This document shows, piece after piece, positions 4,775 to 61,074 of a DNA stretch of 64,000 bases. The first letter of the stretch is position 1; every line of letters starts with the position of its first letter. The notes under the pieces were generated by a model. It ran no database searches, was not told the origin of the DNA, and worked only from the letters and a program-made list of their open reading frames with translations. Position numbers and translations under genes: made by a program. Source of the DNA: Herbiconiux gentiana (GTDB lineage: Bacteria; Actinomycetota; Actinomycetes; Actinomycetales; Microbacteriaceae); the NCBI RefSeq assembly GCF_024978135.1, contig NZ_JANTEZ010000003.1:434001-498000 (forward strand). The letters are read 5' to 3'.

Positions 4775-5872
<1,098 letters not shown>

Positions 5873-43802: not shown

Positions 43803-44552
43803 TCAGCGCCGCACGCGCAGGTGCGTGACGCCCCCGTCGACCTCGAGCGCGGTGCCGGTGGTCGACGCCGACAGCGGGCTGGCGAGGTAGAGGATCGCCT
43901 GGGCGACCTCGTCGGGCGTGACCATCCGACCGGTGGCCTGACGCGCGTCCAGTGCCGCCCGCTCGGCCACCGGGTCGTCGAAGCCCTGCAGCATGCGCTC
44001 GACGAACGGGGTGGCCACCGTGCCGGGCGAGACCGCGTTGACGCGCACCCCGTCGGCGACGTGGTCGGTGGCCATCGCGAAGGTGAGCGCGAGCACCGCA
44101 CCCTTCGAGGCGCTGTAGAGCGCGCGGTCGGGCAGCCCGTTCAACGCGGCGATCGAGCACAGGTTGACGATCGCGGCGTGCTCCGAGCGGCGCAGCCACG
44201 GCAGCGCGGCGGCCGAGACGCGGGCCATGCCGACGACGTTGACGTCGAGCACCCGCGCCCACTGCTCGTCGTCGTTCTGCTCGACGGTGCCGACGGCGCT
44301 GATGCCGGCGTTGTTCACCACGATGTCGAGCCCGCCGAGCGCTTCGCCGGCGGTGTCGACGGCCTGCTGCACCGAGGCGCGGTCGGTGACGTCGGCGGTG
44401 ACGAGCACCGCACCCTCGGGCGCACCCTCGGTCGAGCGGTCGAGCACGGCGACGCGGGCCCCGGCGGCGAGCAGCGCGGTCGCGGTGGCGGCTCCGATCC
44501 CGGATGCGCCTCCCGTGACGATCGCGGCGAGGCCGTCGAACGCGCCGCTCAT
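43803..44552 (-). CDS. SDR dehydrogenase, probable 2-keto-3-deoxy-L-fuconate dehydrogenase
   Basis: A 249-residue short-chain dehydrogenase: GGASGIG nucleotide loop (about 14-20), NNAGIS, and the catalytic Ser with YSASK. In the L-fucose pathway an SDR oxidises C4 of 2-keto-3-deoxy-L-fuconate to the 2,4-diketo acid with NAD; the gene starts inside the stop of the FAH hydrolase that would use this product, so the assignment is strong by context. The ATG overlaps the hydrolase stop by 4 bases. It ends the operon. Confidence 0.85.
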   Translation of the reverse strand: MSGAFDGLAAIVTGGASGIGAATATALLAAGARVAVLDRSTEGAPEGAVLVTADVTDRASVQQAVDTAGEALGGLDIVVNNAGISAVGTVEQNDDEQWARVLDVNVVGMARVSAAALPWLRRSEHAAIVNLCSIAALNGLPDRALYSASKGAVLALTFAMATDHVADGVRVNAVSPGTVATPFVERMLQGFDDPVAERAALDARQATGRMVTPDEVAQAILYLASPLSASTTGTALEVDGGVTHLRVRR

Positions 44553-45391
44553 GCCTGCACCATCGTCTGCTCGGCGCGGCCGAGGCCGTCGATCTCGAGG
44601 GCGACCGTGGAGCCGGCGCGCAGGTACGGCTTGTCGGGCAGGCCGAGTGCGACCCCGGCCGGGGTGCCGGTGTTGATCAGGTCTCCCGGGCGCAGCACCA
44701 TGAACTGGCTGAGGTACCAGATCACGTGGTCGATGCCGAAGATCATGTTCGCGGTGCTGCCGTTCTGGCGCTGCACCCCGTCGACCCAGAGCCGCAGGCC
44801 CAGGTTCTGCGGGTCGGCGACCTCGTCGGCGGTGACGAGCACAGGGCCGAGCGGGTTGAAGGTCTCGCAGCTCTTGCCCTTGTCCCACTGGCCGCCGCGC
44901 TCGAGCTGGAACTCCCGCTCGGAGACGTCGTGCGAGAGCACGTAGCCGGCGATGTGGGCCCGGGCGTCGGCGGGCGAGTCGAGGTAGCGGGCGGTCTCGC
45001 CGATGACGACGCCGAGCTCGACCTCCCAGTCGGTCTTGGTCGAGGCGCGCGGGATGAGCACGTCGTCGAAGGGCCCGACGATGGTCGAGGGGTCCTTCAT
45101 GAAGATGACGGGCTCCGCCGGGTAGGCGGCTCCGGTCTCGTCGGCGTGGTCGCGGTAGTTCAGACCGATGCAGACGATCTTGCCGGGGGCCGCGAGCGGG
45201 GCACCGATGCGCCCCCCGGCGGGCAGCTCGGGCAGGGAGCCCGCAGCCAGCGCCGCGGCGGCGGCGTCGAGTCCTCCGGTGAGGAACGCCCCGTCGATGT
45301 CGCGGGTGACCGTCGAGAGGTCGTAGTACGTCCCGTCGAGCTCGACCGCGGGGGTCTCGTGTCCGGGGGCGCCGATCCGGCTGAATCTCAT
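44549..45391 (-). CDS. FAH-family hydrolase, probable 2,4-diketo-3-deoxy-L-fuconate hydrolase
   Basis: A 280-residue fumarylacetoacetate-hydrolase-fold protein. Metal and active-site marks are KIVCIGLNYRDHADETG, PVIFMKDPSTIVGP, DWEVELGVVIGETARY, KGKSCETFNPLGP and LINTGTPAGVALG. In the non-phosphorylating L-fucose route this enzyme cleaves the 2,4-diketo acid into pyruvate and L-lactate. It overlaps both neighbours by 4 bases (ATGA at each end), between an aldo/keto reductase and the SDR. Confidence 0.88.
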   Translation of the reverse strand: MRFSRIGAPGHETPAVELDGTYYDLSTVTRDIDGAFLTGGLDAAAAALAAGSLPELPAGGRIGAPLAAPGKIVCIGLNYRDHADETGAAYPAEPVIFMKDPSTIVGPFDDVLIPRASTKTDWEVELGVVIGETARYLDSPADARAHIAGYVLSHDVSEREFQLERGGQWDKGKSCETFNPLGPVLVTADEVADPQNLGLRLWVDGVQRQNGSTANMIFGIDHVIWYLSQFMVLRPGDLINTGTPAGVALGLPDKPYLRAGSTVALEIDGLGRAEQTMVQA

Positions 45392-46407
45392 CGCGTGCTG
45401 TCCTTCGTCGTGAGGGGGGTGGTCGGGGTGGCCGGCGGGCGGGGCACGAGGCCGGCCTCGTCGAGCTCGCTCCAGAGCTCGTCGGGCACGGGAGCCGTGA
45501 ACCGCTCGGCGGTCGAGGAGGCCTGGGCCGCGGAGCGCACCCCGGCGACGACACTGACGACGCCGCGGAAGCCGAGCGGGTACTGCAGCGCCGCCGCGGG
45601 CAAGGGGACGCCGTGCCGGGCGCAGACCTCGGCGATCGACCGCGCGCGCTGCAGCAGCTCGGCGGGGGCCTGGGCGTAGTCGAAGGTCGCGGCCTCCGGC
45701 ACCCGGTCGCTGCTCAGCAGACCGGAGTTGAACGGGGCCGCCGCCACCACGCCGACGCCCCGCTCGACCGCGAGCGGGAGCAGCTCGTCGGAGGCGCTGC
45801 GGTCGAGCAGCGTCAGCCGGCCCGCGGCCATCACCACGTCGACGTCGGTGCGCCGCACGAACTCGACGAGCATCGCCGTCTGGTTCATCCCGGCCCCGAT
45901 CGCACCCACGACGCCCTGCTCGCGCAGCTCGACGAGGGTGTCGACGCCGGTCGTCGACGCGGCCTCCCAGTGCTCGTCGGGGTCGTGCAGATAGGCGATG
46001 TCGAGCCGGTCGGTGCCGAGCCGGGCGAGGCTGGCCTCGACCGAGCGCAGGATGCCGTCACGGCTGTAGTCCCAGACCCGCCGCACGGAGGCGGGCACCA
46101 CGAAGCCCTCGTCGTCGAGCCGGTCGGCCGTCTCCGGGCTGTCGACGAGCAGCTTGCCGACCTTCGACGAGAGCACGATCTCGTCTCGGCTGCGGGTCGC
46201 GGCGAGCGCCGCCCCGAGCCGCCGCTCCGAGAGCCCGAGCCCGTAGTGGGGCGCTGTGTCGAAGTAGCGCACGCCGGCGGCGAAGCCGGCGTCGTAGGCG
46301 CCGGCGGCCTCGTCGTCGGTGGTCTCCTTGAACAGGTTGCCGAACTGGGCGGTGCCGAGGCCCAGCTCGGTCAGGGCCAGGCCGGTGCGGAGGGAGCGGG
46401 TCTTCAC
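45388..46407 (-). CDS. Aldo/keto reductase, probable L-fucose dehydrogenase
   Basis: A 339-residue TIM-barrel oxidoreductase. It resembles D-threo-aldose 1-dehydrogenases, which oxidise L-fucose, and often L-galactose and D-arabinose, to the lactone. Marks are GLGTAQFGNLF at the start, VRYFDTAPHYGLGLSERRLG with the catalytic Asp and Tyr, LSSKVGK with the Lys, and DIAYLHDPDEHW with the His. The GTG at 46407 lies in the fuconate dehydratase stop (GTGA). Gene context strongly supports the fucose role. Confidence 0.88.
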   Translation of the reverse strand: MKTRSLRTGLALTELGLGTAQFGNLFKETTDDEAAGAYDAGFAAGVRYFDTAPHYGLGLSERRLGAALAATRSRDEIVLSSKVGKLLVDSPETADRLDDEGFVVPASVRRVWDYSRDGILRSVEASLARLGTDRLDIAYLHDPDEHWEAASTTGVDTLVELREQGVVGAIGAGMNQTAMLVEFVRRTDVDVVMAAGRLTLLDRSASDELLPLAVERGVGVVAAAPFNSGLLSSDRVPEAATFDYAQAPAELLQRARSIAEVCARHGVPLPAAALQYPLGFRGVVSVVAGVRSAAQASSTAERFTAPVPDELWSELDEAGLVPRPPATPTTPLTTKDSTR

Positions 46408-47729
46408 CGAACGGCCTCCACGGCGGGTGTCAGGGCACGGCTCCAATAGCCGCCGTCGGGGAAGGAGTACTCGGCCACGGACTGCTCGTACATCTCGGCA
46501 GAGTACCCCGGCAGGCCCGGCAGCACATAGTTCCCGTCGATGACGATGCAGGGATCGGTGAAGTGCTCGTGCAGGTGGTCGACGTACTCGGTGACCCGCC
46601 CCTCGAGCGATCCCGACACGGCCACGTAGTCGAAGATCGACAGGTGCTGCACCAGCTCGCACAGCCCGACGCCGCCCGCGTGCGGGCAGACGGGCACGCC
46701 GAACTTCTTCGCCATCAGGTACACGGCGAGGATCTCGTTGATGCTCGCGAGCCGCGCGGAGTCGAGCTGGCAGAAGTCGATGGCCTCGGCCTGGAACATC
46801 TGCTTGAACAGCACCCGGTTCATCCCGTGCTCGCCGGTCGCCACACCGATCGGTGCGACCGCGCGGCGCACGGCGGCGTGACCGAGCACGTCGTCGGGAC
46901 TCGTCGGCTCCTCGATCCAGAGCGGCTTGAACTCGGCGAGCCGGTTGACCCACTCGATCGCCTGCGGCACGTCCCAGACCTGGTTCGCGTCGATCATCAG
47001 GTGGGCGTCCCAGCCGATCACCTCGCGGGCGATGCCGAGGCGCCGGATGTCGTCCTCGAGGTTCGCGCCGACCTTGAGCTTCAGGTGCCGGTAGCCCTCG
47101 TCGACCGACTCCTGCAGCAGTCGGCGCAGCTTGTCGTCGCTGTAGCCGAGCCAGCCGGCACTGGTCGTGTAGCAGGGGTAGCCGCCGCGGGCCTCCAGGT
47201 CGGCGATCCGCTCGCCTCGGGTCGGCTCCATCTCGCGCAGCATCTCGAGCGCCTCGTCGCGGGTGAGCGCGTCGGAGAGGTACTGCAGGTCGGCCACGTC
47301 GACGAGCTCCTCGGGGGACATCTCGGCGAGCATCCGCCACAGGGGCTTGCCGGCCTTGCGGGCGGCGAGGTCCCAGACCGCGTTCATCACGGCCGCCATG
47401 GCGAGGTGCTCGACACCCTTCTCCGGGCCGAGCCAGCGCAGCTGCGAGTCGGACTTGAGCGAGCGGTAGGTGCCGCCGAGGTCGCCGACCAGCTCGTCGA
47501 TGTCGCGGCCGATCAGCGGCAGGGCGCGCTGCCGGGAGGCCTCGACGCAGAGGTCGTTGCCGCGGCCGATGGTGAACGTGAAGCCGTGGCCGCGCAGCTC
47601 GCCGTCGGTGCGCAGCACGACGTAGGCGGCGGAGTAGTCGCCGTCCTTGTTCATGGCGTCCGAGCCGTCCTGGCTGAGGGAGGTGGGGAAGCGGACGTCG
47701 TAGACGTCCACGCCGGTGATCTGTGTCAT
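46404..47729 (-). CDS. L-fuconate dehydratase (enolase superfamily)
   Basis: A 441-residue enolase-superfamily acid-sugar dehydratase that turns L-fuconate into 2-keto-3-deoxy-L-fuconate. Marks are NKDGDYSAAYVVLRTD at the N-terminus, the catalytic Lys219 in KLKVGA, the metal-site MIDANQVWD and WIEEPTSPDD, and His350 in CPHAGGVGLCE. The Lys and His fall one residue from the K220 and H351 that I recall for the Xanthomonas enzyme. Known enzymes also take L-galactonate and D-arabinonate. A 69-base gap upstream holds an inverted repeat and likely a promoter. Confidence 0.93.
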   Translation of the reverse strand: MTQITGVDVYDVRFPTSLSQDGSDAMNKDGDYSAAYVVLRTDGELRGHGFTFTIGRGNDLCVEASRQRALPLIGRDIDELVGDLGGTYRSLKSDSQLRWLGPEKGVEHLAMAAVMNAVWDLAARKAGKPLWRMLAEMSPEELVDVADLQYLSDALTRDEALEMLREMEPTRGERIADLEARGGYPCYTTSAGWLGYSDDKLRRLLQESVDEGYRHLKLKVGANLEDDIRRLGIAREVIGWDAHLMIDANQVWDVPQAIEWVNRLAEFKPLWIEEPTSPDDVLGHAAVRRAVAPIGVATGEHGMNRVLFKQMFQAEAIDFCQLDSARLASINEILAVYLMAKKFGVPVCPHAGGVGLCELVQHLSIFDYVAVSGSLEGRVTEYVDHLHEHFTDPCIVIDGNYVLPGLPGYSAEMYEQSVAEYSFPDGGYWSRALTPAVEAVR

Positions 47730-47752
47730 GAGTCATTCCGTGTCATCAGGGT

Positions 47753-47766
47753 GAACCGTTCGGTTC
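47753..47766. promoter_or_regulatory. Inverted repeat upstream of the L-fuconate dehydratase gene
   Basis: GAACCG-TT-CGGTTC is a perfect 6-bp inverted repeat with a 2-base centre, placed 24 bases before the dehydratase start, in the only sizeable gap of this gene string. It looks like a half-size repressor operator; it differs from the CAAWCGTTTG sites elsewhere in the island. Confidence 0.45.
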
Positions 47767-47798
47767 GCGGTGGAAAAGGGGCCGAGGAGCGGGGACGC

Positions 47799-48122
47799 TC
47801 AGTCGGTGTGGAAGACCTCGGGCAGTTCCTGCCACCACTCCCCCGGGGCGCGGCTCTCGAGCGGGCGCTGCAGCGGCTCCTGCACCGCCCACCAGCGCTG
47901 GGTGGCCTCGTCGGCGGCGATCGCGGCCATGTCGGCCTCGTAATCGTCGCCGGTGTACTCGAAGTACGAGAACAGCAGCGCGCCGAAGCGGAAGATCGAG
48001 TAGTTGTGCACGTGGCTCGCGGCGAGACGGGCGAGCACCTCGGGCCAGACGGCCGCGTGGTACGCCTCGTACTCCTCGCGGTTCTCGGGCGGCAGCCCGA
48101 TCACCGACGCGACCCGCTTCAC
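47799..48122 (-). CDS. L-fucose/L-rhamnose mutarotase-like protein
   Basis: A 107-residue RhaM-fold (DUF718) protein that interconverts the anomers of 6-deoxy sugars. Marks are REEYEAYHAAVWPEVLARL with a conserved His, HNYSIF with the second His, and WWAVQEPLQRPL near the end. In L-fucose clusters it supplies the anomer for the dehydrogenase. The GTG at 48122 sits inside the stop of the oxidoreductase gene upstream (GTGA); a 4-base overlap is used at nearly every junction here. Confidence 0.88.
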   Translation of the reverse strand: MKRVASVIGLPPENREEYEAYHAAVWPEVLARLAASHVHNYSIFRFGALLFSYFEYTGDDYEADMAAIAADEATQRWWAVQEPLQRPLESRAPGEWWQELPEVFHTD

Positions 48123-49222
48123 GAGGTCACCGCCACGCGTAGGGGAACGCCCTCGCGCTCGTCGGACTCGTAGGCGGCCTCGACGACCGCCATCGTGTGC
48201 AGCACGTCCTCGACCGAGGTGGGCAGGGTGTCGACCGAGCCCTCCACGTAGCGCTGCAGGGCGCCCATCGAGCCGATGAAGGCGTCGGGGAACCACGAGC
48301 CCTCGAACGGCAGGGGCGTCCAGCCCTTCTCCCCCGCCACGGCGAGCTCCAGCGAGTCCTCCCGGCCCCGCGGGTAGTCGAGCAGCAGGCCGAGCTGGGC
48401 GCGGATCGCGCCCTTCGTGCCCTCCCACTTGATGAAGCTCTCCTCGTGCGCCGGCCCGTAGTCGTGGTCGTGGTTCGTGCTCACGACGGCCCGCAGGTCA
48501 CGTCCCCGATAGCGCAGGATGATCGTGGAGCGCGTCGTGGCGATGTCGGTCTTCTCGGGGTGGCGCCTCGTCACCGCGCTGACGCCGCCGGGGTCGCCGA
48601 AGAAGGAGCGCACGAGGTCGAGGTAGTGCACGCTGTGCATCGTCAGCTCGAGCCGCTCCATGCCGAACACGTGCGGGAAGAGGTGCCACGGGGTGTCGAC
48701 CGAGACGCGCACCTCCAGGTCGTGCACCTCGCCGATGGCACCCGCGGCGATCAGCCGCCGGGCCTCGGCGACATAGGGCGCGAAGCGCAGCTGGGTGTTC
48801 ACCGCGGCCACGAGACCCTTGCGCCGGCACAGGGCGGCGAGCGCCTCCCCCTGCTCGAGGCTGTGGCCGAGCGGCTTCTGGATGAGCACGGGTGCCCCGT
48901 CGGGCAGCGCCTCGAGGGCCGCCTCGTACTGCTCCGGCATCAGCGCGATGTCGTAGACGGCGTCGGCGGGGGCCGCGGCGACGGCCGCCTCGACGGTGCC
49001 GAAGACGTGTTCGATGCCGAACTCGGCGGCGAGGGCATCCGCTCTCTCGACGGTGCGGTTGACGATGCCCCAGACCGGGTAGCCCGCCTTGCGGTAGGCC
49101 GGGAGGTGGGCGTCCTTGACGATGCCGCCCGCGCCGATGACGACGATGGGCCTCGGCCGCTCGGGCGGCGCCGGCGTGTAGGCCGCGGCCGGGTGGCGTT
49201 CGGGGAGGTCGTCGGGGCTCAT
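48119..49222 (-). CDS. Gfo/Idh/MocA-family oxidoreductase
   Basis: A 367-residue NAD(P)-dependent sugar oxidoreductase. The Rossmann loop VVIGAGGIVKDAHLP is at about 27-41 and the catalytic-lysine motif appears as QKPLG instead of the usual EKP. The C-terminal half has MHSVHYLDLVRSFFGDP, which matches the active-site His of this superfamily. It may oxidise a further sugar, or be a second dehydrogenase for the same island; the exact substrate is open. It overlaps the permease gene upstream by 4 bases. Confidence 0.85.
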   Translation of the reverse strand: MSPDDLPERHPAAAYTPAPPERPRPIVVIGAGGIVKDAHLPAYRKAGYPVWGIVNRTVERADALAAEFGIEHVFGTVEAAVAAAPADAVYDIALMPEQYEAALEALPDGAPVLIQKPLGHSLEQGEALAALCRRKGLVAAVNTQLRFAPYVAEARRLIAAGAIGEVHDLEVRVSVDTPWHLFPHVFGMERLELTMHSVHYLDLVRSFFGDPGGVSAVTRRHPEKTDIATTRSTIILRYRGRDLRAVVSTNHDHDYGPAHEESFIKWEGTKGAIRAQLGLLLDYPRGREDSLELAVAGEKGWTPLPFEGSWFPDAFIGSMGALQRYVEGSVDTLPTSVEDVLHTMAVVEAAYESDEREGVPLRVAVTS

Positions 49223-50154
49223 CCCTTCACCGCCCCGATGGTCTGGCCCCGCACGAGGAAGCGCTGGGCCCCGATGAACATCGCCAGGAGCGGCACCATC
49301 GAGATGACGGTGGCCAGGGCGAGCTGGGGCAGGTAGAGCTTCACGTCGAGGCCGGCGGCCACGGTGGCGTTGAAGAGCGGGCTGGCGCCGATGAGCTCCT
49401 GGATGCCGATCGAGATGGTCTTGTTCTGCTGGCTGGAGGTCAGCAGGGCGAGCGGCAGGAAGAAGTTCGTCCAGTTCGCCACGAAGCTGAAGAACGCCAC
49501 CAGTGCGATGGCCTGCTTCGAGATGGGCAGGGCGATCTCGAAGAAGGTGCGCAGCTCGCTCAGCCCGTCGATGCGGGCCGCCTCGACCAGCTCGTGCGGC
49601 ATCGTGGTCATGAAGTGGATGTACGCGAGGTAGACGCCGAAGGGGTAGAAGCCCATGATCACCGCGACCGGCCAGAGCTGACCCACCGCGTTCACGGCGT
49701 TCACCTCGAGGAAGATCGGGATGACGAGCACCGTGTTGGGCATCACCATCGCGAGCAGGGTGGCCATCAGGAAGGCCTTGCGGAAGCGGAAGCGCAACCG
49801 GGCGAAGGCGTAGCCGGCGGGGATGCCGGCGACCAGCGCGAGGGCCGCGCCACCGACCGAGACGATGGCCGAGTTGATCATCCACTGCTGGAACAGGCCG
49901 CCGTCGCCGGGGCCGAAACCGGTGATCTGGTTCCAGCTGTAGACCACGTTCTCCCACGACATGCCGCCGAGGTTGAGGAAGCCGCTGGCACCGGATTCGA
50001 TGTTCTCCTGGCTGCCGAAGGCCAGGGCGATGAAGCCGACGATCGGCAGGATGAACCCTGCCGCGATCACCACCATCACGACGATGCGCGCGATGCGGCC
50101 GGCGTTCCACCGGTGGGAGCCGACGACGCGGGGGACGTCACTGACGCGGGTCAT
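49219..50154 (-). CDS. Sugar ABC transporter permease, MalG type
   Basis: A 311-residue membrane protein with six helices. The ATPase-docking EAA loop is VEAARIDGLSELRTFFEIALP. The head has a MTRVSDVP start, and the C-terminus ends QTIGAVKG as in MalG/UgpE-type permeases. It lies just after a MalF-type permease and a sugar-binding lipoprotein gene, so these three form the importer. No ATPase gene follows. The ATG is in the stop of the other permease (4-base overlap). Confidence 0.93.
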   Translation of the reverse strand: MTRVSDVPRVVGSHRWNAGRIARIVVMVVIAAGFILPIVGFIALAFGSQENIESGASGFLNLGGMSWENVVYSWNQITGFGPGDGGLFQQWMINSAIVSVGGAALALVAGIPAGYAFARLRFRFRKAFLMATLLAMVMPNTVLVIPIFLEVNAVNAVGQLWPVAVIMGFYPFGVYLAYIHFMTTMPHELVEAARIDGLSELRTFFEIALPISKQAIALVAFFSFVANWTNFFLPLALLTSSQQNKTISIGIQELIGASPLFNATVAAGLDVKLYLPQLALATVISMVPLLAMFIGAQRFLVRGQTIGAVKG

Positions 50155-51182: not shown

Positions 51183-51197
51183 AGTGTGTTCCCCTGT

Positions 51198-52561: not shown

Positions 52562-52675
52562 TGACACTCCCTGTTGAGAGCAGTGCGGGCAAGGGCCGGA
52601 CACTGCGGTTTGCCTGGCGAACGGGATTCCCCGCTTGGTGCCGGTGTCACGTTATCCCGATGAAGGCCCGCTAGT

Positions 52676-52685
52676 CAAACGTTTG
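52676..52685. promoter_or_regulatory. LacI-type operator, site A (CAAACGTTTG)
   Basis: A perfect 10-bp palindrome with a central CG, the standard form for LacI-family repressors. It is followed by CTC on the plus strand. It lies between the binding-protein gene (start 52561) and the lactonase gene stop. Confidence 0.75.
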
Positions 52686-52691
52686 CTCAAA

Positions 52692-53576
52692 TCAATTCGC
52701 GGCGGGGCCCGCGAGGCCCAGACGAGCGGGGTCGAGGGCGTAGAACGTGGCCGCTGTGCGGCCGAGCAGCTGCTCCCGATCGGCGTCGGAGAGCTCGGCG
52801 AACAGCGGCGCGAGGCCCTGCCAGACGCGGGTGTAGCCGCCCGCCAGCACCGAGATCGGCCAGTCGCCGCCGTACATCAGCCGGTCGGCGCCGAACACCT
52901 CCAGGGCCCGTTCGAGGGCCGGCCGCACCGAGTCGGTGGTCCAGGATCCCGGGTCGGCCGTGGCGGAGTAGAGACCGCTGACCTTGCCGTACACGGTGGG
53001 CACGGCGGCGGCTTCGGCGATCAGCGTCGACCACGGCTCCCAGGAGTCCAGCCCGATCGGCGGCTTGGAGAGGTGGTCGATCACCATCCGCAGCCGCGGA
53101 TGCCGCTCGGCGATGATCGGGACCAGCTCCAGGTGGCGCGGCAGCACGGCCACCACGTCGAACGGCAGCCCCGCCTCCTCGAGTAGCCCGAGCCCCTCGT
53201 CGACCTCGGGGCGCAGCAGCCAGTCGGCGTCGGCGCGGTCGTGGATGAGGTTGCGCACCCCCACCATCACGCTGTCACCCCGCCATCCCGCGAGCGTCGC
53301 GGCAGCCTCATCGGGGCGGTCGAGCGGCACCCAGCCGACGATGCCGGCGACCTCGGGATGCGCGGCCGCCGACTCCCGCATCAGCTCCGTGTCGGCGCTG
53401 TTGTCAGCCGACTGCACCTGCACCGTGAAGGCGACTCCGGCCGCCTCGAGCTCGGGCTGCAGCTCGTCGAACGTCATCGCCCCGTCGATCGGCGCGTGCT
53501 GCGGGCCGAGCCAGCTGTACTCGGCGCGAGCCGGGTCCCAGACGTGCTGGTGGCTGTCGATGATGGGAAAGGGCAT
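52692..53576 (-). CDS. Amidohydrolase, probable L-fucono-1,5-lactonase
   Basis: A 294-residue amidohydrolase-fold protein. Marks are IDSHQHVWDP with the metal-binding HxH-type motif, SWLGP, MVIDHLSKPPIG with a catalytic His, YGKVSG, and MYGGDWPIS with the catalytic Asp. Proteins of this subgroup hydrolyse sugar lactones, and in L-fucose clusters the enzyme opens L-fucono-1,5-lactone (also L-galactono-lactone). It lies between the repressor gene and the importer, all on one strand, with operators on both sides. Confidence 0.9.
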   Translation of the reverse strand: MPFPIIDSHQHVWDPARAEYSWLGPQHAPIDGAMTFDELQPELEAAGVAFTVQVQSADNSADTELMRESAAAHPEVAGIVGWVPLDRPDEAAATLAGWRGDSVMVGVRNLIHDRADADWLLRPEVDEGLGLLEEAGLPFDVVAVLPRHLELVPIIAERHPRLRMVIDHLSKPPIGLDSWEPWSTLIAEAAAVPTVYGKVSGLYSATADPGSWTTDSVRPALERALEVFGADRLMYGGDWPISVLAGGYTRVWQGLAPLFAELSDADREQLLGRTAATFYALDPARLGLAGPAAN

Positions 53577-53626: not shown

Positions 53627-53670
53627 TTCATCACCGGCGCCGTCGCGTCGAGAGCAGCGCCGTTCCGTCG

Positions 53671-54681
53671 TCAGGGTCGCGGCGCGACGGTCGACTCGCG
53701 GATGATCAGCTGCGGCGCCGGGTCGGAGACCACGAGCCGCGGCACCGTGCCGCCGTGGATGCGGTCGTACAGCGCCGCCATCGCCCGCCGCCCGAGCTCG
53801 TAGCGCGGCATCTTCACCGTGGTCAGCGGAGGCCAGGTGTTGTCCGCCGTCCACGCGTCGTGCATCGCCACCACCGAGACGTCGTGCGGCACGCTCACCC
53901 CGCGACTGCGCAGTTCGAGCAGCACACCGAAGGCGGCGTTGATGTTGGCGACCACGATGGCGGTCGGCCGGGCATCCGCGTCGAGCAGCCGGCCCGCCGC
54001 GGCCCGGCCCACGACGAGCTCGTAACCGAGGGACGTGACCAGGCGCTCGTCGACGGGCAGGCGCGCGCTCGCCATCTCGTCGCGGAAGCCCCGCTCGCGG
54101 CGGCGGCCGGTGACCGAGGAGGGCAGCCCGCCCACGAGGCCGATGCGCTTGTGGCCGAGGCCGATCAGGTGGCGGGTTGCGATGCGGGTGCCGAGCTCGT
54201 CCTCGAGGTCGACGTAGCCGCCGTCGGCCGGGTGGTTGGAGTTGACGTAGACGACGGGCAGGCGGCTGTCGATCTGCTCGCTCAGCTCGGCCGGCTCCAT
54301 CGCGTCGGCGGCCTGCACGAGGGCGCCGTCGATGCGGCCCTCGCCGATCAGGCGCGGCAGCGCGTACTCCTCGAGCTCGCTCTCGGCCCGGGCGAGCAGC
54401 ACCATGTACTTGCGCTCGTAGCCCTCGTCCTCGACGCCGCGCATCAGTTCGCTCACGATCGCGTTGGTGAGGTCGGGCACCACGAGCGCGACCACGTTGG
54501 TGCGCGAGAACTTCAGCGCCCGGGCGGCGTAGTTCGGCCGGTAGTCGAGTTCGCGGGCTGCGTCGGTGATGCGCTTGCGGGTCGCGTCGCTGACCCGGGC
54601 GTCCGCCGCGCCGGTGAGCACGCGCGAGACGGCCGACACCGACACCCCGGCCATGGTCGCCACGTCGCTGAGGGTCGCCAT
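53671..54681 (-). CDS. LacI-family transcriptional repressor
   Basis: A 336-residue repressor: N-terminal helix-turn-helix and hinge helix (LSDVATMAGVSVSAVSRVLTG, about 4-24; hinge YRPNYAARALK), then a periplasmic-binding-fold effector domain (about 60-336). The nearby CAAWCGTTTG palindromes are its natural targets. It likely responds to a sugar of the pathway or its lactone, but the effector cannot be told. A second regulator for the island is not visible. Confidence 0.93.
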   Translation of the reverse strand: MATLSDVATMAGVSVSAVSRVLTGAADARVSDATRKRITDAARELDYRPNYAARALKFSRTNVVALVVPDLTNAIVSELMRGVEDEGYERKYMVLLARAESELEEYALPRLIGEGRIDGALVQAADAMEPAELSEQIDSRLPVVYVNSNHPADGGYVDLEDELGTRIATRHLIGLGHKRIGLVGGLPSSVTGRRRERGFRDEMASARLPVDERLVTSLGYELVVGRAAAGRLLDADARPTAIVVANINAAFGVLLELRSRGVSVPHDVSVVAMHDAWTADNTWPPLTTVKMPRYELGRRAMAALYDRIHGGTVPRLVVSDPAPQLIIRESTVAPRP

Positions 54682-54717
54682 GCGCTCAGTCTAGATTCAG
54701 GCGGATCGGCGTCATGC

Positions 54718-55167: not shown

Positions 55168-56312
55168 GGGGTTCTCTCCTTCTCGGTGCCGAGGTGGCGC
55201 ACGACGGCGTCGTCGAGGCGGCGGCGCAGCTCGTCCTCGTCGAACTCGCCGAGCAGGGCCGCGGTGACGTGCTCGGAGGCCTCGTTCTGCAGTTCGATGT
55301 AGTGCGGGTGCTGCGGGCGCAGGTAGGCGCCCTCGAGCGTCGCGCGGGTTTCGCGGAAGAAGTCGAGGCTGTCGGCGTTGGTGCGTTCGCTCTCCCATGC
55401 CACGGCGTTGCCGGGCTGGCCGCCGCCGTCGTAGTACACGCCCTCCTGCACCGCGGCCGAAGCCAGCCAGAACGCGTGGGCGATGGCTTCGTCCGGATGC
55501 TCGGTCGAGGCCGACACGGCGATGCCGGCACCCCCGAGCAGCGAACCCCGAACGCCGTCCCGCGAGCGCGGGATGTCGGTGTACTTCAGCCGGTGCATCC
55601 GGAAGCCCGCCCGGCTGTAGTTCGTGTAGCCGAACAGCAGCGGTGAGTAGGCCCAGCGGTCGCCTTCACTGAGGGCGTCGGCGGTCTGGATCGGGTTCCA
55701 GCCGGCATTCTCGCGCGGAACGAGTGCGGCGAGGCGCCGGAGCAGCGTCATCGCGGCGCCCAGCGTCTCGGCGCCGAGGAACACACCGGGGGTGCGCATC
55801 GGCTCCTCCCCCAGGCCGGAGGCCACCGTCACCAGGCTCGAGAAGGCGTCGACCGGCTTGTAGGGCCAGAGCACGCGGCCCTCCTCGGCGAGTGCGATCA
55901 CCGCGTCCCAGTCGGCCGGCGGGGCGTCGAGCAGGTCGGGGCGGTAGGCCGAGACCTGGGCGGCGGCGTCGCTGGCGAGGCCCCACTGGCGACCGGCGTA
56001 GGAGTAGGAGCGGTGCGAGGCGCCGACGGACTGGCGGGCGAGGAGCGCGAGCTCGTCGTCGTGGCCGGTTCCGTCGAGCGGGGCGAAGAGCCCCTCGGTG
56101 GCCGCGATCGGGATGTGCGGGTGGTCGATGACGAGGAGGTCGTAGCGATCGGCGAGCTTCTCGAGGGGGTAGTCGGCGAAGGCCTGCAAGGAGCGGTACT
56201 CCCAGATCACCTCGACGTCGGGGGCGACGGCGCGGTAGGCCTGGGCGGCCGCGACGACGCTGCCGTGACCGCGGGCGTGCTCCCAGGTCATGCCGCGGAG
56301 GGTGACGGTCAT
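55164..56312 (-). CDS. Solute-binding-protein-like protein without a signal peptide
   Basis: A 382-residue protein resembling family 1 sugar-binding proteins ([16 protein letters not shown] first strand, [13 protein letters not shown]-like [10 protein letters not shown] helix, [21 protein letters not shown]). It lacks a signal peptide and lipobox: the start MTVTLRGMT goes straight into the fold. There is no permease next to it. It is tightly coupled between a CoA-transferase and a MaoC gene (4-base overlap on each side), so a cytoplasmic role, perhaps binding or acting on a small acid, is more likely than transport. Confidence 0.8.
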
Positions 56313-57517
56313 GCTGCGCCCTCGCCGACGGTGGCGGCGGTCGTGACCGCAGCGGCCGCCGCGCCGCCGAACTCGGCGCGCACGCGGTCGTCGTCCTCGC
56401 CGAGCAGCGGGGCGGCCTTGCGGCTCGTGAGCACCTTCCCGTCGACCCGCAGCGGGCTACGGGTGGTCGTCAGGGTGGTGCCCCGCCGCTCCACCTCCTG
56501 CGTCATGCGGATGGCCGCGAACCCCTCGCTGTCGAGCAGCTCGTCGAGCGTCAGCACCGGCGCGCACCAGACGTCGGCCGCGTCGAGCACGGCGAGCCAC
56601 TGATCCGTGCTGCCCGTGGCGAAGCGCTCGGCGAGCAGGGCCTCGATGCGCTCCTGCTCGTCCCACGCCTGCTGCGGATCGACCATGCCCACCAGCTCGG
56701 GCAGCTCCAGCAGCTCGCCGAGCTTCGGGATCGGGTTCATCGCCAGCGCGATATACCCGTCGAGCGTGGGGTAGGTGCCGTAGGGCGCCGCGAGGAAGGC
56801 GTGCGCCGAGTGCTCGCCGTGCCGCTTCACCGCGATGGAGTCGTCGTTCAGCCGCACGCTGAGCAGCTCGAACTGCAGGTCGAGCATCGACTCGAGCAGG
56901 CTCGACTCGACGTGCCCGCCCTCCCCGGTGCGGAAGCGCCGCACGAGCAGCGCGGTCACCCCCTGGGCGATGTGGCAGCTCAGCAGGTGGTCGGCGATCG
57001 AGAGCCCCACCGGCACCGGTCCGTCGGCGGCCGAGCCGCTCAGCCAGGGCAGGCCGGCGACCGACTGGGCGAGCAGGTCCTGCCCGGGCCTCGTGGCCCA
57101 GGGCCCCTCGGAGCCGTAGCCCGTGGCGCTGGCGTAGACGATCGTGGGGTTGAGCTCCCGCACCGACTCGTAGTCGAGCCCGATCCGCTCCATCACGCCC
57201 GGCCGGAAGTTCTGGATGATGACGTCGGCCTTCGCCACGAGCGTCTTGACGTACTCGAGGTCGTCGGGCTTCTTCAGGTCGGCCGCGATTGACTCCTTGT
57301 TGCGGTTCATCGCGTGGAACGAGACCGTGTCGCCGTCGGCGGTGCGGCCCGCGAAGGCGAGCGTGCGGCCGATGTCGCCGCTGCCCGGCCGCTCCACCTT
57401 GATCACCCGCGCACCGAGGTCGGCGAGCCGCATGGCCGCCACGGGCCCGGCCAGGAACTGGCTGAAATCGAGAACGAGAATGCCGTCCAGCGGCAGTGCT
57501 CCTCGTGCAGTGGTCAC
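56309..57517 (-). CDS. CaiB/BaiF family (class III) CoA-transferase
   Basis: A 402-residue class III CoA-transferase. Marks are VLDFSQFLAGPVAAMRLADLGARVIKVE near the start (split over strand and helix), QNFRPGVMERIGLDYE with the conserved catalytic-region Asp downstream in LSIADHLL, YASATGYGSEGPWA, and DVWCAPVLTLDELL. The enzyme moves CoA between carboxylic acids; substrates cannot be told. The GTG start follows a GGGAGACGAC. It heads the CaiB/SBP-like/MaoC operon, divergent from the Zn-dehydrogenase operon, with operator C between them. Confidence 0.9.
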   Translation of the reverse strand: MTTARGALPLDGILVLDFSQFLAGPVAAMRLADLGARVIKVERPGSGDIGRTLAFAGRTADGDTVSFHAMNRNKESIAADLKKPDDLEYVKTLVAKADVIIQNFRPGVMERIGLDYESVRELNPTIVYASATGYGSEGPWATRPGQDLLAQSVAGLPWLSGSAADGPVPVGLSIADHLLSCHIAQGVTALLVRRFRTGEGGHVESSLLESMLDLQFELLSVRLNDDSIAVKRHGEHSAHAFLAAPYGTYPTLDGYIALAMNPIPKLGELLELPELVGMVDPQQAWDEQERIEALLAERFATGSTDQWLAVLDAADVWCAPVLTLDELLDSEGFAAIRMTQEVERRGTTLTTTRSPLRVDGKVLTSRKAAPLLGEDDDRVRAEFGGAAAAAVTTAATVGEGAA

Positions 57518-57557
57518 GTCGTCTCCCTGTCCGCATCGTTGCGGCGAGCCCTTTGCT

Positions 57558-57567
57558 CAATCGTTTG
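57558..57567. promoter_or_regulatory. LacI-type operator, site C (CAATCGTTTG)
   Basis: The site is in the 137-base divergent gap between the CoA-transferase and Zn-dehydrogenase operons, 40 bases before the former and 88 before the latter. It is followed by CTC as at site A. TTTGCTCA also occurs twice here (57552-57559 and 57564-57571). Confidence 0.7.
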
Positions 57568-57654
57568 CTCATGCTACTGTCGCGACGTGTCGATGCGCAA
57601 GGCGCGGCCTCAGGGCCCGCGGCGCACGACCTCCGACGACGGAAGGACTAGTCA

Positions 57655-58680
57655 GTGCTGACTGCCAGCTACGTGCGCAACCGCACCATCGAGATCGCCG
57701 AGGCGGAGACCACCCCGCCCCCGCCGCCCGGCTCCGTGCAGATCGCGGTCTCGCACGTCGGGCTCTGCGGCACCGACCTCCACATCTTCCACGGCTCGAT
57801 GGATGCCCGGGTGGGCACCCCGCTCGTGTTCGGCCACGAGATGAGCGGCGAGATCGCCGCGATCGGCGACGGCGTGACCGGGTGGTCGGTCGGCGACCCC
57901 GTCACCGTGATGCCGCTGGACTGGGACGGCACCTGCCCCGCCTGCCTCGCGGGCAACGAGCACATCTGCCAGAACCTCGACTTCATCGGCATCGACTCCC
58001 CCGGCGCGCTGCAGCCGCTCTGGAACGTGCCGGCGTCGACCCTCGTGGCACTGCCGGCGGGCATCCGGCTCGACCACGCCGCGCTCGTCGAGCCCGTCGC
58101 GGTAGCCGTGCACGACGTGCGCCGCGCCGAGCTGAAGCCCGGCGAGAAGGCGGTCGTGATCGGCGGCGGCCCGATCGGCGTGCTGATCGCCACGGTGGCC
58201 CGCTCGATCGGCGCCGAGGTCGCGGTGATCGAGCTCGACGGCGCACGCCGCGAGCAGGTCGACGCCCTCGGCTTCACCACCGTCGACCCCCGCGCCGTCG
58301 ACCAGACGGCCTGGGTCGAGGAGTGGACGGGCGGCGTCGGCGCCGACGTCGTGTTCGAGGTCTCGGGCGCGGCCGCCGCGGTGCTCGGCGCGACCGCGCT
58401 GGCGAAGGTGCGGGGCACGCTCGTCGTGGTCGCCATCCACCCGACACCGCGCGAGATCGACCTGCAGCGCGTGTTCTGGCGCGAGCTCACCATCAAGGGC
58501 GCCCGCGTGTACCAGCGCACCGACTTCGAGCGCGCGGTCGAGCTGGTGGCCGACGGCACCGTGCCGGCCGAGGTGCTCATCACGAGCCGCGTGCCACTCT
58601 CCGAGACCCAGGCGGCGCTCGAGGAGCTCGAGAGCGGTCGTGCCATGAAGATCCTCGTCGACGTGGCGGGCAAGGCATGA
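57655..58680 (+). CDS. Zinc-dependent medium-chain alcohol dehydrogenase
   Basis: A 341-residue MDR dehydrogenase. The catalytic zinc site is Cys39-type in GLCGTDLH and GHEMSGE; structural-zinc cysteines occur in TCPACLAGNEHIC; the NAD loop is VVIGGGPIGVLIA. It is like threonine/sorbitol/butanediol or L-galactonate/idonate-type dehydrogenases. In this operon, with a KduD-like SDR after it, it could oxidise the C5 hydroxyl of a keto-deoxy acid. The GTG has GGAAGGA upstream. Confidence 0.88.
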   Translation: MLTASYVRNRTIEIAEAETTPPPPPGSVQIAVSHVGLCGTDLHIFHGSMDARVGTPLVFGHEMSGEIAAIGDGVTGWSVGDPVTVMPLDWDGTCPACLAGNEHICQNLDFIGIDSPGALQPLWNVPASTLVALPAGIRLDHAALVEPVAVAVHDVRRAELKPGEKAVVIGGGPIGVLIATVARSIGAEVAVIELDGARREQVDALGFTTVDPRAVDQTAWVEEWTGGVGADVVFEVSGAAAAVLGATALAKVRGTLVVVAIHPTPREIDLQRVFWRELTIKGARVYQRTDFERAVELVADGTVPAEVLITSRVPLSETQAALEELESGRAMKILVDVAGKA

Positions 58681-59444
58681 GCGGCACGGCTGATCTGTTC
58701 TCGCTCGAGGGCACGACCTCGGTGGTCACCGGCGCGAGCCGGGGCATCGGCCGCGCCATGGCGGTCGCCCTGGCTGAGGCCGGGTCCGACGTCATCGGCG
58801 TGAGCACGACCCTTCCTGCGTCGGGCAGCGAGGTGGGCGCCGCCGTCGAGGCGACCGGGCGCCGCTTCGAGGGCCTGGCGTGCGACTTCGCCGACCCCGC
58901 CGCGGTCGACGCCCTCGCGACCACCCTCGCCGAGCGCGACATCGACGTGCTGGTGAACAACGCCGGCACCATCGAGCGCTCACCGGCGGCCGAGCATCCG
59001 CTCGAGTCGTGGTACCGGGTGATCGAGATCAACCTGTCGAGCCAGTTCCGGCTGACCCAGGCGGTCGGGCGACGGATGCTCGACCGCGGCCGCGGCAAGG
59101 TGATCTTCACGGCGTCCCTGCTCAGCTTCCAGGGCGGCATCAACGTGCCGGGCTACACGGCGGCGAAGTCGGGCATCGCCGGGCTCACCAAGGCCCTGTC
59201 GAACGAGTGGTCGTCGCGGGGCGTGAACGTGAACGCCATCGCGCCCGGCTACATCGCGACCGACAACACCTCGGCGCTGCGAGCCGACCCCTCGCGCTCT
59301 CAGTCGATCCTCGACCGCATCCCGGCCGGACGGTGGGGCGAGGCCTCCGACCTGGCGGGCGCCACCGTCTTCCTGGCCTCCCGCGCCTCGGACTACGTCG
59401 ACGGCATCACCCTGCCCGTCGACGGCGGCTGGCTGGGCCGATGA
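58677..59444 (+). CDS. SDR dehydrogenase, KduD-like
   Basis: A 255-residue short-chain dehydrogenase with TGASRGIG (about 19-26), NNAGTIERSPAAEHP, the catalytic Ser in FTASLLSFQGG, and YTAAK. The RSPAAEHPLESWYRVIEINLSS pattern is that of the KduD group, 2-keto-3-deoxy-D-gluconate 5-dehydrogenases. It starts in the stop of the Zn-dehydrogenase gene (ATGA). Followed by an aldolase and a KDG-type kinase, it most likely forms KDG from a 2,5-diketo-3-deoxy acid. Confidence 0.85.
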   Translation: MSGTADLFSLEGTTSVVTGASRGIGRAMAVALAEAGSDVIGVSTTLPASGSEVGAAVEATGRRFEGLACDFADPAAVDALATTLAERDIDVLVNNAGTIERSPAAEHPLESWYRVIEINLSSQFRLTQAVGRRMLDRGRGKVIFTASLLSFQGGINVPGYTAAKSGIAGLTKALSNEWSSRGVNVNAIAPGYIATDNTSALRADPSRSQSILDRIPAGRWGEASDLAGATVFLASRASDYVDGITLPVDGGWLGR

Positions 59445-60076
59445 GCGGGGCGCCGGCGTCGCTCGCGGGGCAGCCGATCGTGCCGGTCGTCGTGATCGAC
59501 GACGCGGCCCAGGCCGTGGGGCTGGCCGAGGCGCTGCTGGCCGGCGGCATCGGCTGCGCGGAGTTCACCCTGCGCACCCCGGCGGCGCTCGACGCCCTGG
59601 CGGCCGTCTCGGCCGTGCCCGGTTTCGTCGCGGGGGTCGGCACCGTGATCACCCCGTCGCAGCTGCACGCGGCGGCCGACGCCGGGGCGCGCTTCGCGGT
59701 GGCGCCCGGCTTCGACGAGGAGGTCGTGGCGCTCGGCCTCGAGCGCGGCCTCGACGTGGTGCCCGGGGTCGCGACGCCCAGTGAGCTGTCCCGGGCGCTC
59801 CGCGCGGGCATCGACCACGTGAAGCTCTACCCCGCGGGGGCGCTCGGCGGCACGGACTACCTCGATGCGCTGGTGGGACCGTTCCCCGGGGTGCGGTTCC
59901 TGCCGAGCGGTGGGGTGAACGCCTCGACGGCTGCGACGTGGGCCGGGCATCCGGCGGTCTTCGCCATCAGCGGCAGCTGGATGGTGCCCCGCGACGCGAT
60001 CGCCGCCGGCGACTTCGGGCGCATCGCGGAGCTCGCGCGCGCGGCCGTCGTCTCGATCGCGGAGGTGACGCGATGA
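59441..60076 (+). CDS. eda: 2-keto-3-deoxy-6-phosphogluconate (KDPG) aldolase family protein
   Basis: A 211-residue class I aldolase barrel. The Schiff-base lysine is Lys128 in HVKLYPAG, the glutamate of the active site is in CAEFTLRTP, and GVGTVITPSQ and FLPSGGVNAS complete the phosphate and substrate pocket. It would split KDPG into pyruvate and glyceraldehyde-3-phosphate. The ATG overlaps the SDR stop and the next gene overlaps its own stop, both by 4 bases. Confidence 0.92.
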   Translation: MSGAPASLAGQPIVPVVVIDDAAQAVGLAEALLAGGIGCAEFTLRTPAALDALAAVSAVPGFVAGVGTVITPSQLHAAADAGARFAVAPGFDEEVVALGLERGLDVVPGVATPSELSRALRAGIDHVKLYPAGALGGTDYLDALVGPFPGVRFLPSGGVNASTAATWAGHPAVFAISGSWMVPRDAIAAGDFGRIAELARAAVVSIAEVTR

Positions 60077-61074
60077 GCGGGGCCGCGGTGGCCGGTTCGG
60101 CGGCGCCGGGGGCTTCGGCGGCGGGGGCGGTGCTGACGCTCGGCGAGAGCATGGCGCTGATCCGGGGCGACGGGGTCGCGGGGCTGGAGCACCTCGCGAC
60201 CGCGCGGATCGAGACCGGCGGCGCCGAGGGCAACGTGGCCGTCGGCCTGACCCGCCTCGGTGTCGACGCCACCTGGCTCGGCCGGGTCGGCGACGACGCC
60301 CTCGGGCGACGGGTCGCCGGCGAACTGCGCGGCGAGGGCGTGCACGTCGTGGCGATCGCCGACCCGGCGGCGCCCACGGGGCTGATGATCAAGAACACCC
60401 CGCACGCGGGTCGCACCGCCGTGACGTACTACCGGGCCGGCAGCGCCGGGAGCCGGCTCTCGCCCGCCGACCTCGACCGCGTCGACTTCGCCCGGTTCTC
60501 GCTGCTGCACCTGACCGGCATCATCCCGGCGCTCTCGGCGTCGGCCCGCGAGACGGCCTTCGCCGCCGTCGAGCGCGCCCGTGCCGCCGGCTGCACGATC
60601 TCGTTCGACGTGAACCTGCGGGCGTCGCTCTGGCGCGACGAGGATCCGGCGCCGGTGCTGCGCTCGCTCGCCGCCCTCGCCGATATCGTCATCGCGGGGG
60701 ACGACGAGGCCCGGCTGGTCACCGGTTCGCCGTCGGCGCTCGACGACCCGACGGCACTGCTCGCGGCGCTGCGCGACCTCGGTCCGCGCGAGGCGGTCGT
60801 GAAGCGGGGGCCGCACGGCGCGAGCGCGTCGGCGGGCGGCGAGGTCGTGCACCAGGCCGCCTTCGCGGTGCCGGTCGTCGACACGGTCGGCGCCGGCGAC
60901 GCGTTCACCGCCGCGTATCTGGCGCGGCGCCTCGAGGGCGCCCCGCTCGCCGAGGCGGTGCGGGTCGCGGCGATCGCCGGGGCCATCGCGTGCACGCATC
61001 CGAGCGACTGGTTGGGCTACGCCCGCCCGGCCGACCTGGCGGCCTTCGACGCGGTCGACCCCGTCCGGCGCTGA
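60073..61074 (+). CDS. kdgK: PfkB-family sugar kinase, probable 2-keto-3-deoxygluconate kinase
   Basis: A 333-residue ribokinase-fold kinase. Marks are GGAEGNVAVGLTRLG near the N-terminus, SFDVNLRASLW, and the ATP/catalytic motif DTVGAGDAFTAAYL with the catalytic Asp. Order after KDPG aldolase and the KduD-like SDR makes KDG the likely substrate. The first ~20 residues are Ala/Gly-rich and may be extra. A terminator-like hairpin follows the gene. Confidence 0.9.
   Translation: MSGAAVAGSAAPGASAAGAVLTLGESMALIRGDGVAGLEHLATARIETGGAEGNVAVGLTRLGVDATWLGRVGDDALGRRVAGELRGEGVHVVAIADPAAPTGLMIKNTPHAGRTAVTYYRAGSAGSRLSPADLDRVDFARFSLLHLTGIIPALSASARETAFAAVERARAAGCTISFDVNLRASLWRDEDPAPVLRSLAALADIVIAGDDEARLVTGSPSALDDPTALLAALRDLGPREAVVKRGPHGASASAGGEVVHQAAFAVPVVDTVGAGDAFTAAYLARRLEGAPLAEAVRVAAIAGAIACTHPSDWLGYARPADLAAFDAVDPVRR

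Follow-up and report, generated by a model that had tools for sequence, protein, structure and literature searches.

Why would genes that resemble a route for L-fucose, a 6-deoxy sugar, share an island with an operon that ends in a kinase for 2-keto-3-deoxygluconate (KDG)? This question is raised by an island of 18 genes with LacI-type operators at 43803-61074 of the window analysed here, which is the 64,000-nucleotide stretch at positions 434001-498000 of contig C11 in the 3.85-Mb genome of Herbiconiux gentiana. KDG kinase acts on the 6-hydroxyl group; therefore, a 6-deoxy sugar cannot use it. The island is probably a single LacI regulon for L-galacto sugars, in which L-fucose would leave by one exit (exit A) and L-galactose by another (exit B). 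Comparative evidence supports, but does not prove, a role of the second operon as the L-galactose exit, and we infer all substrates, as well as the order of the dehydrogenase steps relative to dehydration, from the sequence.

In the proposed scheme, an ATP-binding cassette (ABC) importer, a mutarotase, an aldo-keto reductase (AKR), a lactonase and an L-fuconate dehydratase would act on L-fucose or L-galactose to yield 2-keto-3-deoxy acids. Of these, the 6-deoxy product would enter exit A, where a short-chain dehydrogenase/reductase (SDR) and then a fumarylacetoacetate hydrolase (FAH)-family enzyme would yield pyruvate and L-lactate. The 6-hydroxy product, 2-keto-3-deoxy-L-galactonate (L-KDGal), would enter exit B, where a zinc-dependent dehydrogenase (ZnDH) of the medium-chain dehydrogenase/reductase (MDR) type and a KduD-like SDR would invert C5 via a 5-keto intermediate to give KDG. 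KdgK would then phosphorylate KDG, and Eda would cleave the product into pyruvate and glyceraldehyde 3-phosphate. C5 is the sole difference between L-KDGal and KDG, as worked out by hand.

Organization and regulation of the island

The genes named in an earlier note on this DNA were all present, with open frames at the positions listed below and with family support. That note left out the Gfo/Idh/MocA gene and coaT, sbpX and maoC, and it did not name lacI (53671-54681). Gene starts were refined by reading gene overlaps.

43803-44552, minus strand: SDR (sdrF), putative L-2-keto-3-deoxyfuconate 4-dehydrogenase of exit A; PF13561/PF00106; start overlaps the fah stop by 4 nt
44549-45391, minus strand: FAH-family hydrolase (fah), putative 2,4-diketo-3-deoxyfuconate hydrolase of exit A; PF01557, 227 bits
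45388-46407, minus strand: AKR sugar 1-dehydrogenase (akr) of the L-fucose/L-galactose dehydrogenase type; PF00248
46404-47729, minus strand: L-fuconate dehydratase (fucD), enolase superfamily; PF13378/PF02746
47799-48122, minus strand: RhaM/FucM-type sugar mutarotase; PF05336, 105.6 bits
48119-49222, minus strand: Gfo/Idh/MocA oxidoreductase (gfo); PF01408
49219-50154, minus strand: ABC sugar permease 2; PF00528
50151-51182, minus strand: ABC sugar permease 1; PF00528
51242-52561, minus strand: solute-binding protein (SBP) of the importer; PF01547; lipoprotein-like N-terminus MKTTRFL...AGC, judged by eye
52672-52689, minus strand: LacI-type operator before the importer operon; TGAGCAAACGTTTGACTA; 1 mismatch to the pattern
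52692-53576, minus strand: amidohydrolase-family lactonase; PF04909
53613-53630, minus strand: LacI-type operator before the lactonase; TGAACAATCGTTTGTGCA; 1 mismatch to the pattern
53671-54681, minus strand: LacI-family regulator (lacI); PF00356/PF13377
54718-55167, minus strand: MaoC-type hydratase (maoC); PF01575, 80.7 bits
55164-56312, minus strand: SBP fold without signal peptide (sbpX); PF13416; start overlaps the coaT stop by 4 nt
56309-57517, minus strand: coenzyme A (CoA)-transferase, family III (coaT); PF02515, 325.6 bits
57554-57571, no strand assigned: LacI-type operator common to coaT and znDH; TGAGCAAACGATTGAGCA; exact match to the pattern
57655-58680, plus strand: ZnDH (znDH), putative C5 dehydrogenase of exit B; PF08240/PF00107
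58677-59444, plus strand: KduD-like SDR (kduD), putative C5 reductase of exit B; TIGR01832, 331 bits vs. a cut-off of 338.85
59441-60076, plus strand: 2-keto-3-deoxy-6-phosphogluconate (KDPG)/2-keto-4-hydroxyglutarate aldolase (eda); TIGR01182, 212 bits, cut-off 156.05
60073-61074, plus strand: PfkB kinase of the KDG-kinase type (kdgK); PF00294

The minus strand carries, in order of transcription, coaT-sbpX-maoC-lacI, the lactonase gene, the importer genes (SBP-permease-permease-gfo-mutarotase) and fucD-akr-fah-sdrF, and the plus strand carries znDH-kduD-eda-kdgK, divergent from coaT. Overlaps of 4 nt were found in 11 of the 16 same-strand neighbour pairs, including every consecutive pair in znDH-kduD-eda-kdgK and in coaT-sbpX-maoC.

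Three near-identical palindromes were located, one before the importer SBP gene, one before the lactonase gene and one between coaT and znDH. When the whole genome was searched for the pattern and up to 3 mismatches were allowed, 16 matches were returned, of which six were the three island sites read on both strands and the remaining 10 all had 3 mismatches. The same pattern read backwards, as a control, gave 13 matches, so sites with 3 mismatches are at chance level. No site with fewer than 3 mismatches was found outside the island in the whole genome. The matching operators described in the earlier note are real, and their chance origin was rejected by this search and its control. No palindrome lies directly before fucD-akr-fah-sdrF; these genes begin 69 nt past the mutarotase gene on the same strand, and their membership in the regulon is thus suggested by position.

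A matrix built from the three window sites was also used to scan related loci at a match threshold of 9.5, at which mononucleotide shuffles of 10 loci gave a background of 0.8 matches per 40 kb. Of the 21 scanned loci that encode a LacI ortholog (49-96% identity), 20 had a palindrome scoring 19.5-24.5 before coaT; the exception was G191, with a best site of 14.2. This palindrome was common to znDH wherever znDH was present, and the importer was usually preceded by a palindrome too. The seven scanned loci lacking a LacI ortholog held three matches in all (scores of 9.7-12.0). Placement of the importer, the lactonase and the divergent exit-B operon in one LacI regulon appears well supported by these comparisons.

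The upper route and exit A

The minus-strand genes appear to match, in both reaction order and enzyme families, the non-phosphorylating L-fucose route 3 (FucM-A-B-C-F-G) of Xanthomonas, Herbaspirillum and Acidovorax (PMC11199699). The L-fuconate dehydratase of this route is represented by fucD, whose product matched the solved enzyme (2hxt/1yey) at E 1.4e-175 over residues 3-434. The top five of 54 solved relatives of the AKR are all named L-galactose dehydrogenase. The mutarotase exceeded the PF05336 cut-off and scored 52.7 bits against TIGR02625 (cut-off 99.6). The best NCBIfam model of the lactonase was L-fucono-1,5-lactonase (FuconLaconase; 175.9 bits, below the 400-bit cut-off), and that of the FAH enzyme was 2,4-didehydro-3-deoxy-L-rhamnonate hydrolase (306.7 bits, below the cut-off of 500). 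The exit-A SDR reached no NCBIfam cut-off among the 25 models shown, and it matched the solved L-2-keto-3-deoxyfuconate (L-KDF) dehydrogenase entries (8y11 group) distantly, at E 3.1e-30, behind many other SDRs. The island differs from route 3 in having an AKR as 1-dehydrogenase, a LacI regulator and an attached exit B, and in adding Gfo and the CoA-transferase/SBP/MaoC genes.

None of the 18 island genes encodes an ATPase for the importer. An ABC ATPase gene of the MalK/MsiK type occurs at 4685-5872 of the window, together with an msiK RNA motif at 4715-4773; the motif overlaps the start of the listed open reading frame (ORF), so that the true start of the ATPase gene is probably downstream. 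This ATPase is a plausible motor shared with the island importer.

Exit B and its distribution among relatives

The combination proposed in agar degraders, an adjacent Zn-MDR and KduD-like SDR accompanied by KdgK and Eda, is present in the plus-strand operon. The best solved matches of the KduD-like SDR were 4hp8 and 4z9y, and the kinase was closest to the KDG kinase 1v19 (E 4e-47). The eda gene gave the only PF01081 match in the genome.

ZnDH was searched in 199 genomes of the family and matched in 28 of them, with full-length orthologs of at least 67% identity in 19 genomes, the window's included. Around each of these 19 loci, about 20 to 38 kb was read; the matching genomes whose loci were left unread were G073, G096 and G085 (53-59%) and G192, whose partial ZnDH (71% over 233 residues) was kept out of the 19. 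An AKR of at least 50% identity was encoded in the same region in 18 of the 19 loci, with G028 as the exception. Counting G192, whose AKR matches were 48% and 44% identical and the latter about 12 kb away, gives 18/20. Such an AKR was near ZnDH in none of the five loci read with a ZnDH of 55-62% identity. A random 20-kb stretch would carry one in an estimated 0.3% or so of cases, a figure derived from about 100 listed matches of an AKR search limited to 10 scored candidates in each genome and from a mean genome size of 3.3 Mb with shared ancestry ignored. AKR matches at 43-49% and FAH matches at 48-62% were common and were not counted as orthologs. A tree of 29 rows required four changes of the AKR label, and none of 500 shuffles gave a number as low; it is given little weight because of long branches and near-copies, and it marks, like the accompanying 12-kb table, the window, L115 and L116 as AKR-less although an AKR lies in the same region at least 11 kb away.

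A kduD relative was located within 12 kb of znDH in 29/29 rows. The expectation that eda and kdgK always belong to the exit-B operon was rejected, as they were absent within 12 kb in 11/29 and 12/29 rows, respectively; eight genomes lacking eda within this distance were searched, and all had eda elsewhere. A KDPG aldolase family match was obtained in 19/19 ZnDH genomes vs. 8/11 others in the same search, which is a weak contrast. The dehydratase near ZnDH, where found, was either a FucD ortholog (at least 80%) or a second enolase-superfamily type, and neither was seen in the part read of some loci.

In Microbacterium sp. 2FI, znDH-kduD-fah-sdrF occurred on one strand with a largest gap of 54 nt by ORF calls, divergent from coaT-sbpX-maoC-lacI-akr-fucD; therefore, a single operon there seems to serve both exits. 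The gene caller was home-made and missed some genes, such as eda in G165. The earlier proposal of two exits from one upper route within one regulon is well supported by this operon, by the operators and by the AKR that accompanies ZnDH. Across the 199 genomes, ZnDH (at least 67%) and FAH (at least 66%) occurred together in 10, that ZnDH only in nine and that FAH only in 10, which suggests that the exits assort as modules. The ZnDH cluster of G150 contained FucD, lactonase, AKR and GH29 genes, and no FAH match was found in that genome at E 1e-70. GH29 was matched in 6/19 ZnDH genomes, including the window's own (C2:1457), and three other clusters adjoin genes for beta-helix-type proteins whose GH141 signal was weak (below the cut-off in 3/3).

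Several variants were seen in related clusters. The surroundings of a ZnDH-KduD-Eda-KdgK cassette of 60% identity without AKR (L111:13323-18875) include a gene for a GH35 beta-galactosidase and a short frame of the sulfatase family, which may point to a sulfated galactan. In L117:15851-17714 and its relatives, genes for another enolase-superfamily protein and for an RraA-like aldolase are near the lactonase gene; both occur in many related clusters and are not among the 18 window genes. The clusters with the RraA-like aldolase possibly have a third exit by retro-aldol cleavage.

Other sources of KDG

KduD, KdgK and Eda are standard enzymes of the uronate route, and exit B could instead serve KDG from uronate, gluconate or galactonate metabolism, merely captured by the regulon. 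The genome has nine MR_MLE (enolase-superfamily) matches, FucD included, so KDG could have another source; one of these proteins is nearest to galactonate dehydratase (217.5 bits vs. a cut-off of 311), and clusters without AKR hold ZnDH relatives at 55-62% identity. On the other hand, UxuA, UxaA (PF04295) and KduI had no match in the genome (UxaB and Edd/IlvD types were not searched), and the canonical uronate route to KDG was rejected for this genome on that basis. Among the 19 ZnDH genomes, UxuA was matched in 1/19, UxaA in 2/19 and KduI in 8/19. Seven MR_MLE proteins were scanned as N-terminally trimmed pieces, which understates their scores, and none reached the cut-off for gluconate, galactonate or mannonate dehydratase; two of the seven passed o-succinylbenzoate synthase cut-offs. 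Furthermore, close ZnDH orthologs are nearly always accompanied by the AKR, and the exit-B operator is the same as that of the importer genes. A source of KDG outside the island thus seems improbable as the reason for exit B.

Comparison with published pathways

The pairing of enzymes in exit B has a parallel in the agar-degrader route for 3,6-anhydro-L-galactose (EC 1.1.1.389 + KduD + KdgK + Eda), in which a Zn-MDR-type EC 1.1.1.389 enzyme and KduD are assigned to L-KDGal (PMC10163077, PMC5943477). In an agar polysaccharide utilization locus of Aquimarina ERC-38, the two families stand side by side with neighbouring locus tags and are annotated as EC 1.1.1.389 and 1.1.1.127. An equivalent route has been predicted in Paraglaciecola, and the Streptomyces anhydrogalactose enzymes are covered as far as L-KDGal in PMC9706016. 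The island differs in that no agarase or anhydrogalactose-dehydrogenase-type gene was found among its 18 genes; L-KDGal would come from L-galactonate. The earlier note drew a marine parallel; the same two families are proposed for this step in agar degraders, by annotation and cited earlier work. Taken with the need for a 6-hydroxyl group, the likeness of the AKR to L-galactose dehydrogenase and the unmatched UxuA, UxaA and KduI, this parallel is indirect support for L-galactose as the substrate of the second exit, short of proof.

The two dehydrogenases could also act before dehydration. In such an order, ZnDH would oxidize L-galactonate to D-tagaturonate, the SDR would reduce this to D-altronate and the fuconate dehydratase would form KDG, without L-KDGal. 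L-fuconate dehydratase of Xanthomonas accepts D-altronate, and a paper published in 2019 on a pathway for L-galactose reportedly describes two dehydrogenases that epimerise L-galactonate at C5 in Acidovorax, which would fit. In Luteolibacter, where the altronate route serves L-galactose, this order is supported by work with purified enzymes and disrupted genes (PMC12632266). Like the route proposed for the island, the Luteolibacter lguA-H system for L-glucose and L-galactose combines a plant-grouped L-galactose dehydrogenase with C5 oxidation and reduction, a KDG kinase and a KDPG aldolase; it differs in its tagaturonate and altronate intermediates, and no L-fucose exit is described in the parts of the paper examined. 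The same order was proposed for Halomonas loci, in which the genes for L-fucose, L-fuconate and L-galactonate are co-located, as L-fuconate and putative L-galactonate genes are in the island, and are likely co-regulated (PMC5507952). The L-galactonate arm in Halomonas consists of lgoD, uxaA, uxaB (or uxaF) and a tripartite ATP-independent periplasmic (TRAP) importer, in place of the Zn-MDR, KduD-like SDR, Eda and KdgK of the island. Furthermore, both D-altronate and L-galactonate are substrates of a bacterial dehydratase that does not belong to the enolase superfamily (PMC6336799). However, the genome lacks a UxaA match, and the second dehydrogenase is KduD-like, a family named for a 3-deoxy substrate. 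The altronate order is therefore a serious but less likely alternative. Dehydration before C5 inversion is favoured here as the more probable order, and the dehydrate-then-invert sequence given in the earlier note is not established.

A joined pathway for L-fucose and L-galactose or L-galactonate is already known, and the novelty of the island thus resides in its enzyme set and host group. If the two-exit pathway is true, one actinobacterial regulon would handle L-fucose plus the rarer L-galactose, and the L-galactose exit would use, in place of altronate enzymes, a pair that has until now been proposed for agar degraders. It would also provide sequence markers for the L-galactose trait in Microbacteriaceae.

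Apart from the other possible source of KDG, several points weigh against the use of exit B for L-galactose. ZnDH stayed below the cut-off of each of the 25 NCBIfam models shown, and the KduD-like SDR fell just under that of the KduD family (TIGR01832, 331.0 vs. 338.85, for a query without its first two residues). The agar-degrader assignment was made by similarity to a cited 2014 study (PMC10163077, PMC5943477), and a 2024 review of L-KDGal breakdown gives aldolase or kinase-plus-aldolase routes (PMC11219438); the word diketo is absent from that review. A cluster induced by D-arabinose only encodes an AKR that acts on D-arabinose, L-fucose and L-galactose (PMC6336799), and the Luteolibacter L-galactose dehydrogenase LguA is inactive with L-fucose (PMC12632266), so that a single AKR does not necessarily act on both sugars. 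Among the relatives, the 18 AKR-ZnDH loci share ancestry and are not independent. Weaker FAH matches (51-60%) were found elsewhere in 8/9 of the ZnDH-only genomes, and weaker ZnDH matches (56-61%) in 4/10 of the FAH-only genomes. GH29 alpha-L-fucosidase genes adjoin the exit-B clusters with FucD in G150 and G165, which points to fucose.

A further point concerns exit A. The Herbaspirillum L-KDF 4-dehydrogenase also oxidizes L-KDGal, with a kcat/Km of 1480 per min per mM vs. 7900 for L-KDF, or 5.3-fold lower (PMC11199699). L-galactose might therefore not need exit B, and the earlier statement that the second set of enzymes makes no sense otherwise was too strong. L-galactose could share exit A with L-fucose, and a third sugar acid, perhaps made by the Gfo/CoA-transferase/MaoC branch, could be the substrate of exit B. 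The znDH and kduD genes are divergent from a close coaT in the window, G197, G082, G007 and G091 (all five such loci seen in the 199 genomes), and in G102, G142, G025 and G071 the 20 kb read around ZnDH also contains a coaT/sbpX pair, though a more distant one (35-41%). On the other hand, 14 of the 18 loci outside the window with a ZnDH of at least 67% lacked a coaT of at least 55% within 12 kb, and in 10 of these 14 the 20 kb read yielded neither a coaT nor an sbpX match above 80 bits. A third acid for exit B is judged improbable, and L-galactose is the more probable substrate.

The CoA-transferase, sbpX and MaoC genes

The coaT-sbpX-maoC trio is the most surprising part of the island and a larger question than the two-exit pathway. 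The structure model of SbpX (pLDDT 94.9) has its first strand from residue 3 and thus begins at the mature fold; there is little room for a signal peptide because the sbpX start lies in the coaT stop. Its best structural matches, among the 50 shown, were sugar-binding SBPs such as SmoF, with a template modelling score of about 0.8 and 14-19% identity. MaoC scored 27.5 bits against PF19315 (mesaconyl-CoA hydratase), just above the cut-off of 26.5.

In a scan of named genomes, an sbpX relative was encoded in at least 504 stretches. The closest among the matches listed (93% and 85-86%) were in two Herbiconiux genomes, which also gave the closest ZnDH matches (97% and 87%). The best 80 of these stretches were analysed; by title they belong mostly to Actinomycetota and Alphaproteobacteria, with a few metagenome-assembled genomes of other groups. 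Fifty-eight were at least 19 kb long, and among them neighbours were counted by tblastn at 60 bits or more: both coaT and a MaoC relative in 57, gfo in 41, lactonase in 40 and mutarotase in 33. A FucD relative of at least 45% occurred in 18/58.

Family III CoA-transferases and enoyl-CoA-hydratase-type enzymes are also neighbours in the CaiB/CaiD carnitine system. The coaT product belongs to this family (PF02515, 325.6 bits), and CaiB was a weak sequence match to it (E 3.7e-11). Like CaiB/CaiD, the trio pairs a family III CoA-transferase with an enoyl-CoA-hydratase-type enzyme; it differs in having MaoC in place of a crotonase, Glu at the presumed place of the catalytic Asp, a sugar context and an SBP fold as its third gene. 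Glu209 lies in the column that we take to be the place of the family III catalytic Asp, and Glu was present there in 74/74 aligned CoA-transferases, comprising the window and 73 of the 80 loci (the rest were weaker or stop-holding matches). This column holds Asp in 4ed9, Glu in the best solved match u380 and Ser in succinate-hydroxymethylglutarate transferase entries; nothing is concluded from Glu209 because other solved relatives hold Glu or Ser there.

It is conceivable, though doubtful, that the trio forms a CoA-thioester branch of aldonate catabolism, with the net effect of a sugar-acid dehydratase or C3 epimerase and by analogy to CaiB/CaiD. The family III transferase would charge a sugar acid with CoA, MaoC would remove the 3-hydroxyl group or re-add it with the other stereochemistry, and the transferase would then pass CoA to the next sugar acid; the signal-less SbpX would carry or activate the acid in the cytosol. 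A second sbpX/coaT pair in the same genome, with an sbpX 36% identical, lies at C10:543447-544520 (stretches L068/L069), next to genes for enoyl-CoA hydratase, FAH-family, aldehyde dehydrogenase, DUF4432, SDR, TIM-barrel isomerase and Gfo proteins. No MR_MLE-type dehydratase was found in the 38 kb taken around this pair (IlvD/Edd types were not searched), which is the gap that the CoA-thioester reading predicts. No literature linking such genes to sugar-acid breakdown was found among titles and abstract starts, a body of text in which subscription journals are mostly uncovered.

Two SBP-family proteins of 415-417 aa with no evident signal peptide by eye (L103:5996-7243 and L104:10747-12000) adjoin kdgK, akr and znDH genes.

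Other features of the window

A ZMP/ZTP riboswitch was located on the minus strand at 41346-41427, at the start of a serine hydroxymethyltransferase gene (40029-41402), and a purU-like formyl-transferase/ACT gene (42757-43752) lies near it.

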